This document shows positions 2,780 to 29,973 of a stretch of 64,000 nucleotides of DNA, one piece after another (positions within the stretch are counted from its first letter, which is position 1; each line of letters starts with the position of its first letter). Below the pieces are notes generated by a model. That model made no database searches. It saw nothing but the letters and a program-made list of their open reading frames with translations, and had not been told where the DNA came from. A program made the translations under genes and the position numbers. Origin of the DNA: a virus. The stretch is taken from positions 29,778-93,777 of IMG/VR virus record IMGVR_UViG_3300013102_000005; one strand, given 5' to 3'.

Positions 2780-4318
2780 CTACCGGATGCCCATGGCCGC
2801 CAGGGTCCTCGCCACCGCGTCGTCCTTGCGCTCGGAGACGGCCAGCACCTGCACGTCCTCGCTCTGGATGTAATGGGCGTTCTCCAGGAAGGCAAAGGCG
2901 ATGGTGTCCCAGATGTCAGGGGAGGGCAGGCCTTCCTTCTGCTGCATGTCGATCTTGCTCATCAGCTGCCACCGGCCTTTCTCGTCGAAACCGAAGGGGA
3001 TGCGTGAGCCTTGGTCGAGCATGTCGTTCTGCTGGGCATCGCAGAAGCTGATTCGGTTGTTGTCCACGGCCAGTTTCAGGTGCACGTTGCACTGGGCCCG
3101 CTGGTTGATGAAGCGCTCGCGGTATTCTTTGCGGAAGTTCGGCACGCCCCAGCTCACGTTGGTGATCAGGGGTACGCCCAGGCGCTCCAGCATCTTGGCG
3201 AACTGGATGCCCTGGCCACCGACGTCCACCAGCACGGTGCAGTTCGAGTATTTGGCAGCCTCCAGCGCCACCATGGCCGCCGCGTCCGTCCAGTCCCGGC
3301 TGTTGGTGTAGATCGGGATGTCCAGGACGTCCACCCGCCTGGGCTCGGGCGCCTCCGACCCGCCCTGGCCGATGACCCGCACGAGGGTGCCCACCGTCTT
3401 GTCGCGGTAGACGCCGCCGCCCACGTCCACCAGCAGGAAGTAGCCGTAGGGCTCGTCCTCGCCGATCACGCGATGCTCCTCGCCGATCAGGCGCTCGATG
3501 GAGCGCCGGCCGAGCAGGTACTTGTCGGAATGCTCGGGGAACCGACCCTGGACCTTGACCTGGTACTCCACGGAGTCGCGGCTGCCGTACTCCAGCGCCT
3601 TGTCGCGGATGAACTCGTCCGAAACGATGGGCGAGTCCTCGGAGTTGAACACGAGGCTCGTCCAGAGCCCTCCGTTGCGTACCGCCCACTTGTGATGGGT
3701 CTCGTAGAAGAAGCCCGACCCCCGGGTAGGCTGGCTGGCCAGCGCAAAGCGGTTGCGCTTGTCGGTCAGGGCGCCGGCGATGACCTTGAGGTTCGCGTCG
3801 GGGATACCCGAAGCCTCGTCACCCAGCCACAGCAGGTAGTTGCCGTGCGTACCGGCCATGTTCTCCGGCGAGCCGCGCGGTGCCGTCCGGCAGGTGATGA
3901 ACCAGCGCATGCTGGCGCCTTTGACGTAGACCTTCTTCGCCTTGATCTCGAAGTATTCGGCCACCCAGCCCTGCGGGCCCTGCTCGATCACCTCCTTGAG
4001 GGTCGAGAACTCTTTCCAGATGCCTTCCGACAGGGTGTTGAGCTTGGGCGCGGTCAGGTAGGTGTTGCTGTCCGCGTAGCAGAGCAGGTGCCACAGGGCG
4101 ATGACGGCAAAGGAGCGGGTCTTGCCCGTACCGTGACCGGACGACACTGAGGTGCGCGAGCCGAAGGGGGAGACACTGTTGAACAGGTCCACCTGCTGCC
4201 AGGTGATCGAGGTCATGCCGCAGACCTCTACGGCGAAGCGCGCCGCATCCATCGCATAGCGCTCGGCGAAGGCCTTCCAGCGGACATCGGCCGAGAGGGC
4301 CCGGATCTTCTTAGCCAC
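2780..4318 (-). CDS. terL: Terminase large subunit
   Basis: 512-residue DNA packaging motor: an ATPase that drives DNA into the capsid and a nuclease that cuts concatemers. Walker A is SSGHGTGKT (residues 59-67), Walker B is LLWLGDE (162-168). The RNase H-like nuclease domain supplies Asp298 (LLVDVGGG), Asp365 (VLVDVGGQ) and Asp468/Asp471 (PDIWDT). Start is GTG, overlapping the stop of the 53-residue gene upstream. The partner small subunit is not adjacent but lies about 22 kb away at 26.5-27.4 kb, which is unusual. Length is normal for the family. Confidence 0.93.
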   Translation of the reverse strand: MAKKIRALSADVRWKAFAERYAMDAARFAVEVCGMTSITWQQVDLFNSVSPFGSRTSVSSGHGTGKTRSFAVIALWHLLCYADSNTYLTAPKLNTLSEGIWKEFSTLKEVIEQGPQGWVAEYFEIKAKKVYVKGASMRWFITCRTAPRGSPENMAGTHGNYLLWLGDEASGIPDANLKVIAGALTDKRNRFALASQPTRGSGFFYETHHKWAVRNGGLWTSLVFNSEDSPIVSDEFIRDKALEYGSRDSVEYQVKVQGRFPEHSDKYLLGRRSIERLIGEEHRVIGEDEPYGYFLLVDVGGGVYRDKTVGTLVRVIGQGGSEAPEPRRVDVLDIPIYTNSRDWTDAAAMVALEAAKYSNCTVLVDVGGQGIQFAKMLERLGVPLITNVSWGVPNFRKEYRERFINQRAQCNVHLKLAVDNNRISFCDAQQNDMLDQGSRIPFGFDEKGRWQLMSKIDMQQKEGLPSPDIWDTIAFAFLENAHYIQSEDVQVLAVSERKDDAVARTLAAMGIR

Positions 4319-4472
4319 GCGCGCGCTCCGCCTTGAGGCGCGCCAGGGCCTGCTCGATGAGTTCCAGCGAGGTGGCGGCTACCAGCATCGTCAGGCAGTC
4401 CTGGGCGACGGTCAGCTGGTGGTCGTCGATAGCGGCGGCCTGAGCGCGGCGCCGGCGCTTGGCTTTAGGCAT
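4311..4472 (-). CDS. Small basic protein preceding terL
   Basis: 53 residues: a very basic N-terminus (KAKRRRRAQ) followed by a predicted amphipathic helix. The stop codon TAA overlaps the GTG of terL, so the two are translationally coupled. Its place directly before TerL would fit a packaging accessory, but it is too short for a standard small terminase and a clear TerS exists elsewhere. Function unknown. Confidence 0.55.
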   Translation of the reverse strand: MPKAKRRRRAQAAAIDDHQLTVAQDCLTMLVAATSLELIEQALARLKAERARG

Positions 4473-4618
4473 GATGTGGGTATCCAGAAAAAGTCAGGAA
4501 ACCCTACTGGCGCCCAGATAAGGGCTAGCTGTTCACTTTCCCATCCAAGCGCTTCGGCAAGATGATTACTGCTGGTATGCTCGCAGTATTAACTCATGCA
4601 GGCCAGGATCGCAAAGTA

Positions 4619-5530
4619 ATGATGTATATAGAAGAGCTGGCATTTAACAGCGTGGAAGAACTACTTAATCATGTGGTTCCATGGGGTTCTAACCCAGAAC
4701 TCGACGGTTATATTTTTCGAGGGCATAGCCAGGAGTCGTATCTACTGGTGCCGCTTGCACTTCGGTCTGACAAATTGGATTTGCTATGCAACGCGGCTGG
4801 TTTCACTATAAATGATAAGCGTGAAATGAACCTTTTCGACCAGGTGCAAGCCGAATATCAAATATTGAGGAGATTCTATCGCTTGGCAGACCAGAGGGGA
4901 TTGCCTGTTCCGATCAGTACTCGCATTCGCGAAGATCTGGCATCAAAATCCTCGTCAATCATGAATTTCAAAGCCAAGCACACTGATACTTGGATTCCAC
5001 CGGACCTGCATGAAGCAGCGGCACTAGCCCAGCATTATGGTATGCCCACCAGACTTCTCGATTGGACATACGACATTTTTGTAGCGATGCATTTTGCATT
5101 CAAAGGTGCGATTAAAAAGGAGGATAACCTTTGTATCTGGGCGCTAAATATGGCCCACCTTTCGTGGCTAACTCCAACTGTAGAGGCTGTAGGTGTTGAC
5201 TTCGTGACTCCTCATTATGCCGGCAATCCGCATTTAAACGCCCAAAAAGGCCTGTTTACTCACATGCCTAGTTTTTTCCCCCATACTGTACAGATCCATC
5301 ATGATGTAAATAACGTCGAAAAAATAACTGGGCCAATCGATAGAGCGCCATTTGACGAAACGCTACGGGGGCGATTTGCCAATATAGAAGAAAATATATT
5401 TAAGAAATTCATATTGCCTTGCTCTGAGGCCAAGAAGGGGCTCCAGATACTGGACAACCTAGGCTATGACGAGTCTAGGATATATCCAGGGTATAAAGGT
5501 GTAGCTAATCAGCTGCTACACCCTAATTAA
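4619..5530 (+). CDS. FRG-domain protein, candidate defence or exclusion gene
   Basis: 303 residues matching the FRG domain: FRGH (residues 33-36), HYGMPTRLLDWT (139-150), NPHLNAQKG (203-211) and IYPGYKGVAN near the C-terminus. FRG proteins are frequent in mobile elements and defence islands, with no established biochemical activity. The gene is plainly AT-richer than its neighbours, sits alone on the plus strand between terL and the early genes, and converges with a membrane-protein gene (15-bp overlap). These are signs of lateral acquisition. AGGA lies 10 bases before the chosen ATG; an earlier ATG at 4562 lacks a ribosome site. A role against competing phages is inferred from context. Confidence 0.8.
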   Translation: MMYIEELAFNSVEELLNHVVPWGSNPELDGYIFRGHSQESYLLVPLALRSDKLDLLCNAAGFTINDKREMNLFDQVQAEYQILRRFYRLADQRGLPVPISTRIREDLASKSSSIMNFKAKHTDTWIPPDLHEAAALAQHYGMPTRLLDWTYDIFVAMHFAFKGAIKKEDNLCIWALNMAHLSWLTPTVEAVGVDFVTPHYAGNPHLNAQKGLFTHMPSFFPHTVQIHHDVNNVEKITGPIDRAPFDETLRGRFANIEENIFKKFILPCSEAKKGLQILDNLGYDESRIYPGYKGVANQLLHPN

Positions 5531-6079
5531 GCTACTCAGCCAGCCGGCTATTGCTGCACTAATAGTCTGTGCACGCTCATATGTCTCGGCAGGAAATGCA
5601 AGGTATAGCGATCCCCAGATAGCTAATACAGCAGACATTACACTGTAGCCCGCCCCTTGCGCCAGAACCCTTGGCAATGTGACTTCGTCATGATATTGAA
5701 TTTGGGCTAGGCAGCTATCGACCCTGGCTCTATTTATTTTATAAAGCATTTCGAAACGCGCCTTGTCCTCATCAACTACCTTTCTTAGCTCTTCAATGTC
5801 TTTAGTAATCTGTGCAAGCGGATTTTTTGTATTAATGCCCATCAGGCTTGCGGTATATCTGAACGTATAGGACGGCGCGTCATTCCACTCCGGTAGGTAT
5901 TCTTCAAACTTCGCATCTTTTGCAGATCTCGCCTTGATAGCATTGCGGGCTGCCAGATAAATAGTAATCGCCGAAGAGATTCCTACCAGCAACATTCCAT
6001 ACGCGAGAAAGTAATTATTGGGGAATAGGCCAAGCACGACCGTTCCAACTAGCACAGATATGAATGCGAGAACGGCCAT
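5516..6079 (-). CDS. Membrane protein convergent with the FRG gene
   Basis: 187 residues with two N-terminal hydrophobic segments (about 3-19 and 24-44), a charged coiled-coil-like cytoplasmic region with DIEELRKVVDEDKARFE, and a third hydrophobic stretch near 150-170. Low G+C like the FRG gene, with which it overlaps by 15 bp tail to tail. No family recognised. A membrane partner or an immunity component for the FRG protein is conceivable; nothing in the sequence proves a link beyond position and base composition. Confidence 0.65.
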   Translation of the reverse strand: MAVLAFISVLVGTVVLGLFPNNYFLAYGMLLVGISSAITIYLAARNAIKARSAKDAKFEEYLPEWNDAPSYTFRYTASLMGINTKNPLAQITKDIEELRKVVDEDKARFEMLYKINRARVDSCLAQIQYHDEVTLPRVLAQGAGYSVMSAVLAIWGSLYLAFPAETYERAQTISAAIAGWLSSLIRV

Positions 6080-6123
6080 GAATGGTTATCCATTGAGGAG
6101 GCAGGACGGGCCCGCACTGTATC

Positions 6124-6513
6124 TCACAGGGCGGGTTGGGCGACACGGTAACGACCGCGCTTTTTACCACCAGGTGGTTGGTAGGCTGCGCAGCATGCCT
6201 TGCAGTGGGCCCGCACACGCGTGACCACACCTTTGACCCTCACCAGACCGAAGAACTCGCCGTCGTTCGGCCACCACTCCTGGCACTGGGTGCAGAGCTT
6301 TTCCTCACCGTACTCGGCCTGGCGCATCTGGGGCACGGTCGCCCGTTTGCGCCGGCGGCCGTTGGCCTTGGTCGGCTCCCGCACGGGCTCATCCGGCGGG
6401 GTTTCTGGCCACTCCATTTCCAGCACCAGCCGGTCGCGCTGCTCGCGCTCGAACCGGTAGAGGATGGCGAAGATGGGATCGCCCTGGAATGGCGTGGAGG
6501 CGAGCATCTGCAT
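6124..6513 (-). CDS. Zinc-ribbon protein
   Basis: 129 residues. The C-terminal half has CTQCQEWWP, a spacer, then HCKACCAAY, the pattern of a small phage zinc ribbon also seen in HNH/endonuclease VII-like proteins, but no nuclease His/Asn pair is evident. A basic GRRRKR patch precedes it. The start has AAGGGG and lies next to the stop of the DUF3268-like gene. Confidence 0.6.
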   Translation of the reverse strand: MQMLASTPFQGDPIFAILYRFEREQRDRLVLEMEWPETPPDEPVREPTKANGRRRKRATVPQMRQAEYGEEKLCTQCQEWWPNDGEFFGLVRVKGVVTRVRAHCKACCAAYQPPGGKKRGRYRVAQPAL

Positions 6514-6516
6514 GGC

Positions 6517-6978
6517 TCACCCCTTGGCGCCGAGGTAGGCCCGGCAGGCCTGGCCAGCTCGCACGCACAGCTCCAGATCGAACAGCCCGAAGTGGCACCG
6601 GTCGGGCGTCAGCCCCAGCTGCTCGGCAAGCCAGCGATAGGCCGCGCTTCTGGAGAGGTGCCCATCCCGCCAGATCAGCTCAAAGGGCGCCTTGTGCAGC
6701 TCGCGAGCCTTGCGTAGGGACTCATCGGCCAGGGTGCCCAGCGGCAGATTGGTGGAGGGGTGAAGCCCTACCCGTGCATCGCACCCGGTGCAGCCGTAGA
6801 CCCAGGGCCAGTCGCCGTAGCTGCGGCCGTTGTAGATGTCGTGGTGATGCTTGATCACCACCGCTCCACCGCAGCAGGGACACACAGTCGGGATGGCCAA
6901 CGGGTCTTTCACCCGCGCGATCGCCCGCCGACTCGGATTGCTGGGCGTCTTGACCGCCGACGCGACCTCACTGCTCAT
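6517..6978 (-). CDS. DUF3268-like zinc-finger protein
   Basis: 153 residues with CPCCGG and CTGC pairs around a conserved-looking IYNGRSYGDWPWVYGC segment and a helical C-terminus containing SRSAAYRWLAEQLG. The layout matches the zinc-finger DUF3268 family found in phages. The start ATG overlaps the end of the ParB-like gene by 11 bp and has GGGAGG upstream. Function of the family is unknown. Confidence 0.65.
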   Translation of the reverse strand: MSSEVASAVKTPSNPSRRAIARVKDPLAIPTVCPCCGGAVVIKHHHDIYNGRSYGDWPWVYGCTGCDARVGLHPSTNLPLGTLADESLRKARELHKAPFELIWRDGHLSRSAAYRWLAEQLGLTPDRCHFGLFDLELCVRAGQACRAYLGAKG

Positions 6979-7951
6979 CGCCGTCCTCCCGCGCCTTCTC
7001 GGCTGCCTTGAGCTCGGCCTTGCGCCGGTTCTCCTCGTGGGTTTCGCGCACGTGCCGGGCCGTGGCCACCACCGCATTGAGCGAGCGGATGGTCAGGGGC
7101 ACCGTCATGCTGCCCAGGACCGTCTCACCGGTGCGGTAGCGCTCCACCTGCTCCAGGATCGACTCGGGCAGCTCGGCCACGAGCTGGAGCGAGGCGGCCA
7201 GCAGGTCCTCGGACAGAGCGCGCGGGATGGCTGGGGGCAGGGCGGGCAGTGCCTTGCGGGTCTTGCGCTCCTCCAGCATCTTGGGAGTGACCTTGGCGCC
7301 GCCGGCTTCCTCGCTGATCGTGCGGATCTCGGCGGCCGCCTCCTCCCCAAATGCTCGAAGGGCCTTCACGGCGGTGCCGGGGGCGATGACGTCCTGGTCG
7401 ATGAGGTCGCGCACGTCCTCGCCGCCATGGGCAATCTTGAGCAGCTGCTCCACGTACTGGCGAGAGAACCCCACGAGCTTGGCAATCTGGGCGGCTGGTA
7501 GGCCGTCGGTTTCGGCGAAGTCACGCACCACATCGGCCAGTTCGACCGGATCCAGCGGCTCCTGGCTCTGGGAGGTGACAATGCGCGCCTTGCACTCCAG
7601 CTCGTTGCCGATGAAGGGTTTCAACCCGATCAGCGGGATGGTGTAGCCCCAGGACTCCAGCAGGCGCAGCGCACGAATGCGGCGGTGCCCCTCGATCACC
7701 TTGAGTCCGCCCTCGGCCCGCGCCTGGACCTCGATTTGCGGCAGGACGTTGTTGATGTCCACCAGCGTTTTGGTCGCCTTGTCCTTGATCAGGCTGCGAG
7801 CGCTGCGCTCGATGCTGGCGTCCAGCTTGGGACCCTCGCGGCGCTTGTTGAAGCCGGGCGTGAAATGGAACTGGTCCAGGGCGGCAAACATGCCTTTGTC
7901 GGTGCGCTTGATGATCTTCTCGTTGATCATCTTTTGGATCGAATTACTCAT
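6968..7951 (-). CDS. ParB-like nuclease-fold DNA-binding protein
   Basis: 327 residues. VIEGHRRIRAL (about residue 100) is the conserved ParB/Srx box, followed by a helix-turn-helix, LPAAQIAKLVGFSRQYVEQL. The C-terminal third is charged and probably coiled coil. No parA lies next to it; the ParA of this element is at 48 kb with its own ribbon-helix-helix partner, so this protein is more likely a regulator or phage DNA metabolism factor than the centromere binder. Translationally coupled (ATGA) to a 38-residue gene upstream; AGGAG precedes the start. Confidence 0.75.
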   Translation of the reverse strand: MSNSIQKMINEKIIKRTDKGMFAALDQFHFTPGFNKRREGPKLDASIERSARSLIKDKATKTLVDINNVLPQIEVQARAEGGLKVIEGHRRIRALRLLESWGYTIPLIGLKPFIGNELECKARIVTSQSQEPLDPVELADVVRDFAETDGLPAAQIAKLVGFSRQYVEQLLKIAHGGEDVRDLIDQDVIAPGTAVKALRAFGEEAAAEIRTISEEAGGAKVTPKMLEERKTRKALPALPPAIPRALSEDLLAASLQLVAELPESILEQVERYRTGETVLGSMTVPLTIRSLNAVVATARHVRETHEENRRKAELKAAEKAREDGDEQ

Positions 7952-8064
7952 ACCTGCTCGCTCCTGAGCGTGCATGCGCGCCAAGGGCGCTGGCCGGCTG
8001 CCACGTGATGGATATTGAAAAGCACTAGGGGGCTCAGGGCGGGGTCCAGACTGTCTGGAGTCAT
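7948..8064 (-). CDS. 38-residue peptide gene coupled at both ends
   Basis: Its ATG overlaps the preceding stop as ATGA and its own stop overlaps the ATG of the ParB-like gene in the same way. Such double coupling is hard to explain by chance. The product is short with no motif seen; it may simply keep ribosomes moving into the next gene. Confidence 0.45.
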   Translation of the reverse strand: MTPDSLDPALSPLVLFNIHHVAAGQRPWRACTLRSEQV

Positions 8065-8627
8065 AGTATCCGGGCCTCCCGCCGACGAGTCGGGCGATCG
8101 CCCAGGACGGCCGTCATGGCGTCCTCTGCGGCCCGGTACTCGCACCCCATGATCTCCACGCAGTAGGGAGCGGCAGCTGCGCTGACATGGAAGTAGAACC
8201 AGCCATCCACCCCGTCGAAGCAGTGGTAGCCGCGCCGTCGCTCATGACTCGCCAGGCTAACGCCCAGCTGACCCATCAGCCGCGACATGTCGGCGAGGAA
8301 ATAGGGGCGCTCGGCCGCCCAGCAAGCCCGTAGGGCGGCGATCTCGTCCAGGCGGATGTCGCGTAGCTCTTCGGGCGTGTTCACCGCAGGCACGCAGCGG
8401 GGAATGTAGCCGCCCTGGCCGCGCAGCTCCCACAGATGCAGGTTCGGCTGGGCTTCGAAGTTCAGGCCCGAGAACGAGCGGCCGCCCAGGTCGTTAAAGA
8501 ACACCGGCCGGCTGCCGGGGAAGTGATGGGCAAAGGCCTCGCCTTCGAGCTGCACGCGGCGGCAGTCGAGCAGGTACTGCTGGCGTGCATGTAGCACGTC
8601 AGGATTCTTGGTCTTGTAGTAGCTCAT
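8061..8627 (-). CDS. Hypothetical protein
   Basis: 188 residues, soluble, rich in aromatic residues, with several Cys but no clear metal site. Starts at ATG with AGGAA somewhat far upstream, 17 bp after the stop of the preceding gene. No family recognised. It is the first of four coupled genes ending with the DUF3268-like gene. Confidence 0.55.
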   Translation of the reverse strand: MSYYKTKNPDVLHARQQYLLDCRRVQLEGEAFAHHFPGSRPVFFNDLGGRSFSGLNFEAQPNLHLWELRGQGGYIPRCVPAVNTPEELRDIRLDEIAALRACWAAERPYFLADMSRLMGQLGVSLASHERRRGYHCFDGVDGWFYFHVSAAAAPYCVEIMGCEYRAAEDAMTAVLGDRPTRRREARIL

Positions 8628-15324: not shown

Positions 15325-16560
<1,236 letters not shown>

Positions 16561-29498: not shown

Positions 29499-29973
29499 GT
29501 CGGTCTCACTGGTCTCGGGTTGCTGCTGCATGGCTGCATGGGTCAGGACGCCGGCGCCGGTCGCGCTGCGTACTCACCGATGCACCCTTGCGGGGTTCGG
29601 GCCGGTTGCCACTCCCGGCGATCACCCTCACCAGCGTCGCTGGCCAGGGCATCGGCTTCACCCTGTGCGGCCACTGCCAGCCAGGGAGGTCTTGGGCGAG
29701 GCGGTGGAGTTGAACCACCGAGTCGGGATGATGAGTCCCGTCTTGCACCGGCATGCCTCGCAGTGCTCATGCCCTCTTGACGCCCGTTGCCGGGGAGGAC
29801 TTACGACTGGGTCCCGCCATTGGGCCAGCCCACTCCGTTGGGCGACCCTGCCGAGGAGGTTGCCGGCAGGCGTATCAGCTGTGTGGGATGGTGGCCCTAC
29901 GCTCTCCACACCCACGTATCCAGGCTATCCCTCCGCGAGGGCCGCCCTGGCACGGTGTTTCCAATCCCTCAGC
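29499..29973. other. 475-bp intergenic region holding a tRNA-like element
   Basis: Besides the tRNA-like element at 29693-29761, the minus strand has a CCTGCCG/CGGCAGG stem and a GCCCA/TGGGC stem further upstream. Short open frames exist but none has convincing coding features; the 75-codon frame over the tRNA-like element is rejected. It probably carries structured RNA and the XRE gene terminator. Confidence 0.4.
29693..29761 (-). tRNA. tRNA-like element, anticodon CAT, reduced D-arm
   Basis: Read on the minus strand: a 7-bp acceptor stem GCGAGGC/GCCTCGC, an anticodon arm CGGGA-CTCATCA-TCCCG (anticodon CAT), a 4-base variable region, and a canonical T-arm GGTGG-TTCAACT-CCACC. CCA follows the acceptor strand directly. 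Only 14 bases separate the acceptor and anticodon stems, too few for a normal D-arm, and position 37 is C rather than a purine. It is therefore either a degenerate phage tRNA-Met or a tRNA mimic. Confidence 0.5.

Follow-up and report, generated by a model that had tools for sequence, protein, structure and literature searches.

Within a 64,000-nucleotide stretch of viral DNA (the window; positions 29,778 to 93,777 of IMG/VR virus record IMGVR_UViG_3300013102_000005, which is 93.8 kb long), a gene coding for an FRG-domain protein and a gene coding for a small membrane protein occupy an AT-rich segment beside the terminase gene. Do the two form a defence system that functions as a pair, as a sequence-only reading of this DNA had suggested, or are they separate pieces of mobile cargo that share a site? 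Our analysis indicates that the locus is of an ordinary kind, namely horizontally acquired FRG cargo beside an orphan membrane gene. With modest confidence, we favor a lysogenic-conversion (moron) locus in which FRG would be a single-gene antiviral effector of the ADP-ribosyltransferase (ART) superfamily, and the membrane protein would not be an obligatory partner.

The locus lies in a P1-like phage-plasmid

The carrier is a temperate P1-like phage-plasmid, since the record encodes a Rep3 initiator, a ParA-like protein and a tail sheath in addition to a PacB-type terminase large subunit (TerL; Table 1); it thus pairs a terminase of this type with genes for plasmid replication and partitioning. 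An integrase and an endolysin are also encoded. The TerL protein is 70% identical to a protein encoded by the 114-kb Pseudomonas psychrotolerans plasmid pPRS08-11306, and 51–57% identical to proteins of other Pseudomonas and Burkholderia plasmids of 80–95 kb each.

Several additional features of these replicons were recorded. The terminase small subunit (PF03592; 26463–27449, minus strand) does not adjoin TerL, but lies approximately 22 kb away. The gene at 15325–16560 (minus strand) has DNA matches on plasmids of Xanthomonas, Chimaeribacter and Pseudarthrobacter, in genes of the RtcB family (RNA ligase), and would be an RNA-repair gene carried by the phage-plasmid; there is also one tRNA-Met gene (29694–29761, minus strand). 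TerL relatives in record L094 (5989–8265) and in Acinetobacter soli plasmid NZ_CP016898.1 are annotated as Hint-domain homing endonucleases and appear to be interrupted by inteins, while the window TerL is uninterrupted. Two Pseudomonas phage-plasmids carry extra TerL-like fragments (26–31% identity) upstream of the main TerL (L095, 5114–5659; L097, 2783–3544 and 5203–5877).

Table 1. Features of the insertion and its flanks (window coordinates).
Feature	Coordinates	Strand	Evidence and remarks
Terminase large subunit TerL, PacB type (backbone)	2780..4318	-	70% identity to pPRS08-11306, 35% to P1 PacB
Conserved small ORF, 53 aa	4311..4472	-	Read from sequence; overlaps TerL start, marks backbone side of insertion
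AT-rich inserted segment (approximate ends)	4550..6085		60-bp GC profile, whole-window comparison; absent from pPRS08-11306
FRG-domain protein, 303 aa	4619..5530	+	PF08867, PDC-S15, phrog_4962, 66-sequence alignment
187-aa orphan membrane protein with three hydrophobic segments	5516..6079	-	Hydropathy; convergent to FRG gene, 15-bp 3' overlap
GC-rich small phage gene (phrog_3273) next to insert	6124..6513	-	Absent from pPRS08-11306 at this place
DUF3268 zinc-finger phage gene	6517..7077	-	Likewise missing from pPRS08-11306 at this site
ParB-like phage protein (backbone), other conserved flank	6968..7984	-	phrog_1033, E=8e-42; 34% identity to pPRS08-11306 7489–8385

Two AT-rich genes were inserted next to TerL

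The segment 4619–6079 has a GC content of 45.7%, the minimum among all 1461-bp stretches in the window (mean 64.0%, sd 3.6%), and the AT-rich stretch is the sole place where GC drops below 54%. GC3 values are 0.447 for the FRG gene and 0.463 for the membrane gene, versus 0.80–0.91 in the neighboring genes and at least 0.63 in every other called gene of the window. The lowest GC together with the outlying GC3 indicates that the segment is real and foreign. Composition shifts at approximately 4500–4560 on one side and 6060–6120 on the other; a search for flanking repeats at the insert ends revealed none that were informative. The sequence-only reading had described the pair as lower in G+C than its neighbors, as lying on opposite strands with overlapping 3' ends, and as interrupting the run between TerL and the early genes, and in all of this it was right: the FRG gene ends at 5530 and the membrane ORF at 5516, and the minus-strand run from TerL to early-type genes is broken by the pair.

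Plasmid pPRS08-11306 is collinear with the window, and the order of homologues continues across both flanks. A DNA match of 74% covers window positions 4304–4419 and ends at 4419, and a counterpart of the small ORF preceding TerL stands at the equivalent place (65% identity over 34 aa). In the plasmid, the interval between the ParB-like gene and this small ORF measures approximately 0.5 kb and holds one 68-aa ORF; in the window it measures 2.5 kb and holds four genes, of which only the FRG and membrane genes are AT-rich. Since the collinear plasmid lacks both of these genes, we conclude that they were inserted; the site is thus variable, and the two AT-rich genes reached it late. Neither gene was found by search in seven P1-like relatives (pPRS08-11306 and six others), a negative that reaches no further than the search itself. 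The segment therefore displays two hallmarks of moron cargo, foreign base composition and absence at the equivalent position of a collinear relative.

The FRG protein belongs to a widespread family of mobile cargo

The FRG ORF is open from an ATG at 4562, but its likely start is the ATG at 4619 or 4622, which we prefer because an AGGA-like Shine-Dalgarno sequence immediately precedes 4619, where the alignments with relatives also begin. The protein matches the Pfam FRG profile PF08867 (E=9.1e-18; 65.4 bits versus a curated cut-off of 25), phrog_4962, whose function is unknown (E=3e-49), and, as a single-gene match, the PADLOC profile PDC-S15 (E=7.8e-31), which stands for a candidate defence category. 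In an alignment of the window protein and its relatives (66 sequences), all ten family-invariant residues are present (R34, G35, R49, Q138, H139, T144, D148, F159, Q209 and G211), and the invariant pattern FRG...R...QHxGxPTRLLDW...FA...QxG is complete. No solved structure related to FRG by sequence was found. Frg has been placed in the ART superfamily as a potential immune or antiviral effector and possible NADase (PMC9503650); the ART fold and NAD+ chemistry considered below are predictions that follow this proposal. For a 2025 paper and for PADLOC, PDC-S15 remains an uncharacterised candidate, and we found no published phage-resistance phenotype for any FRG protein in the literature.

A profile scan yielded 114 FRG relatives in viral contigs, 80 of which were kept. 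A GC comparison of 69 non-redundant viral loci showed FRG to be richer in AT than its flanking DNA in 68 of them, the mean difference being 13 points. P2-like prophages account for approximately 30 loci; in these FRG, usually solitary and antisense, lies between gpV and gpS, as exemplified by Salmonella phage SEN8 (HOR04_gp17). The window FRG resembles this cargo in being AT-rich and set against a structural operon; it differs in phage type and in insertion site, since it adjoins TerL. Close relatives, 42% identical, are found on conjugative and mobilizable Enterobacterales plasmids, some of them adjoining an Abi gene, and a DNA search for FRG in E. coli genomes gave no match.

A closely similar arrangement is seen in L013, a GC-rich phage contig whose FRG is 43% identical, AT-rich, solitary, antisense and immediately upstream of terminase genes (identified there by sequence reading rather than by profile scan). 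The two FRG proteins share one tree clade with support of 0.99. This contig differs in having no membrane gene, the downstream neighbor being a GC-rich gene for a soluble phage protein. In three further records (L004, L012 and L023), a Y-family DNA polymerase (umuC-type) gene adjoins FRG or is one gene away, by annotation in the first and by similarity in the other two; SOS-linked sites may thus be a further landing place.

FRG is thus a widespread accessory gene carried as mobile cargo, and foreign composition and antisense placement, seen in the 68 loci, in the P2-like prophages and in L013, are habits of the FRG family rather than properties of this pair. In invariant residues, size, solitary habit and carriage by prophages and plasmids, the window protein does not differ from the PF08867/PDC-S15 family; it is unusual only in its P1-like phage-plasmid carrier and its membrane-protein neighbor. 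The association of FRG with mobile loci, proposed from the sequence alone, is supported by these plasmid and prophage relatives, and its candidacy for defence by the PDC-S15 match and by PMC9503650.

Could FRG instead serve the lytic growth of the phage itself, by modifying host targets in the course of host take-over or counter-defence? T4 Alt and ModA/ModB are examples of phage ARTs with such a role, as far as the reference list of PMC9503650 indicates. However, the antisense orientation relative to late genes, the presence of relatives beside an Abi gene on conjugative plasmids, the patchy distribution and the foreign composition all fit cargo better, and we regard a take-over role as distinctly unlikely.

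The membrane protein is an orphan

Hydropathy analysis of the membrane protein revealed two N-terminal hydrophobic segments (approximately residues 1–20 and 24–44) and one C-terminal segment (146–164), in agreement with the helices at both ends that had been noticed earlier. The polar middle region, 92 residues long, includes a basic stretch right behind the second segment. This layout would fit a protein with helices at both ends and a cytoplasmic middle.

We found no match for this protein in Pfam (E up to 1, including the SLATT profile), PHROG or NCBIfam, and no relatives in scans of viral contig, genome contig and phage collections. A hit to Kiwa KwaA (E=0.016) covered a hydrophobic stretch and was at chance level, and the convergent neighbor here is FRG, not KwaB. 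A weak tblastn match beside FRG in record L073 was also discarded, as it reads as a soluble protein without hydrophobic segments. The one detectable relative is WP_306213625.1, a hypothetical protein from an Erwinia pyri conjugative plasmid, which is 33% identical over most of the window protein and has a similar layout. It is not located beside FRG: its neighbors are MipZ, CopG and replication genes, and no FRG match was found on that plasmid.

These observations bear on the possibility that the membrane protein by itself serves as a superinfection or entry-exclusion factor, FRG being merely co-resident in the cargo site. This proposal, which is compatible with the moron reading, is a plausible but tentative one. 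It agrees with the setting of the only relative, whose gene is carried by a conjugative plasmid, close to genes for partition and replication and with no FRG there, and the 44-bp gap to the upstream phage gene would permit co-transcription. A single relative is nevertheless very thin evidence, and no exclusion family was matched.

The pair does not recur as a two-gene system

The sequence-only reading had gone further, and proposed that the pairing could be a new two-gene module, which would be refuted if the genes were never found together elsewhere. In the collections searched, recurrence was sought and no second locus pairing FRG with this membrane protein was found; the genes did not recur together in independent loci. 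None of the neighbors in approximately 75 other FRG loci resembles the window membrane protein, and the plasmid of its sole, 33% identical relative lacks FRG. A conserved FRG–membrane protein system is thus not supported, and of the candidate defence cassette originally envisaged, the acquired cargo and the membership of FRG in a defence-candidate family (PDC-S15; PMC9503650) stand, while the two-gene system does not.

Other membrane proteins do occur opposite FRG. In four P2-like loci (L015, L017, L025 and L026) a protein with five transmembrane segments (5-TM) is encoded convergently to FRG, the same 191-aa protein being shared by two of them, and in L012 the convergent gene encodes a 2-TM protein. 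None of these proteins is related by sequence to the window membrane protein; for those of L015, L017 and L025, tried as possible relatives, the hhalign probability was approximately 0.1%. When the 5-TM family was sought on its own, it was found at the gpS–gpV site either by itself or accompanied by other cargo genes, and we therefore consider the membrane genes of P2-like cargo sites to be independent cargo. The P2-like prophage contigs L099–L107 carry members of this AT-rich accessory family between gpS and gpV, with lengths of 180–196 aa and about five hydrophobic segments. Companions of the family at this site are FRG, a DUF3800-like gene (judged by sequence reading), other genes or nothing. 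Pfam gave no convincing match for the three members scanned, and the family is possibly an exclusion factor.

A true two-gene module, in which FRG would make or release an ADP-ribose-derived signal and the membrane protein would open or disturb the membrane, would accord with the same foreign composition of both genes, their tight convergent packing and joint insertion, and with the unrelated membrane proteins opposite FRG in L012 and the four P2-like loci. A similar mechanism has been proposed for neighboring TIR and 2TM SLATT genes of phages (PMC9503650), where a small membrane protein likewise accompanies an enzyme linked to NAD+. The pair in the window, however, matches neither of these families, its association is not conserved, and its genes are convergent whereas the TIR–SLATT genes are operonic. 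Together with the lack of a second locus, the absence of an operon or of a SLATT or other Pfam match, and the 5-TM protein that is not specific to FRG, this makes the module an unlikely explanation. A looser version, in which FRG enzymes pair facultatively with varied convergent small membrane effectors that an ADP-ribose signal opens, the pair in the window being one such combination, deserves still less credence. It is very unlikely that the genes are a toxin–antitoxin or addiction pair stabilising the phage-plasmid, with FRG poisoning NAD+ pools and its neighbor neutralising it: the carrier does live as a phage-plasmid, and toxins of such modules are found in other ART clades, RES among them, according to work cited in PMC9503650, but most loci have FRG on its own and show no conserved second gene, and both a three-segment membrane protein as antitoxin and a convergent layout would be unusual.

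The shared foreign composition makes joint arrival of the two genes in the window likely, and leaves room for a joint function. A loose functional link between FRG and the membrane protein may exist.

A proposed moron locus with FRG as its probable active part

Taken as a moron locus of a temperate P1-like phage-plasmid, the segment would have the FRG gene as its active part. FRG is antisense to the phage operon and could therefore be read from a promoter of its own while the lysogen is quiet; a consensus promoter scan gave nothing above chance and no better than shuffles, and we infer such a promoter from the gene's orientation. Upon entry of a competing phage, FRG expressed in the quiet lysogen would consume NAD+ or transfer ADP-ribose, and the competing infection would be stopped, which would favor both the resident phage-plasmid and the cell that carries it. 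FRG most likely acts alone, as a superinfection-defence effector and predicted ART-fold NAD+ consumer (PMC9503650).

The membrane protein, which probably arrived with the same DNA or entered the same variable site, is most likely an accessory that is separate from FRG or tied to it only loosely, and FRG would not require it as a partner. If it acts independently, it would most plausibly do so in the envelope, for example in superinfection or entry exclusion.

FRG proteins constitute a large candidate defence family, and are standard, swappable cargo of P2-like phages, P1-like phage-plasmids and conjugative plasmids. Their solitary habit makes a one-gene test meaningful, and should FRG indeed prove to be an effector that consumes NAD+, a function would be assigned to this widespread orphan family.
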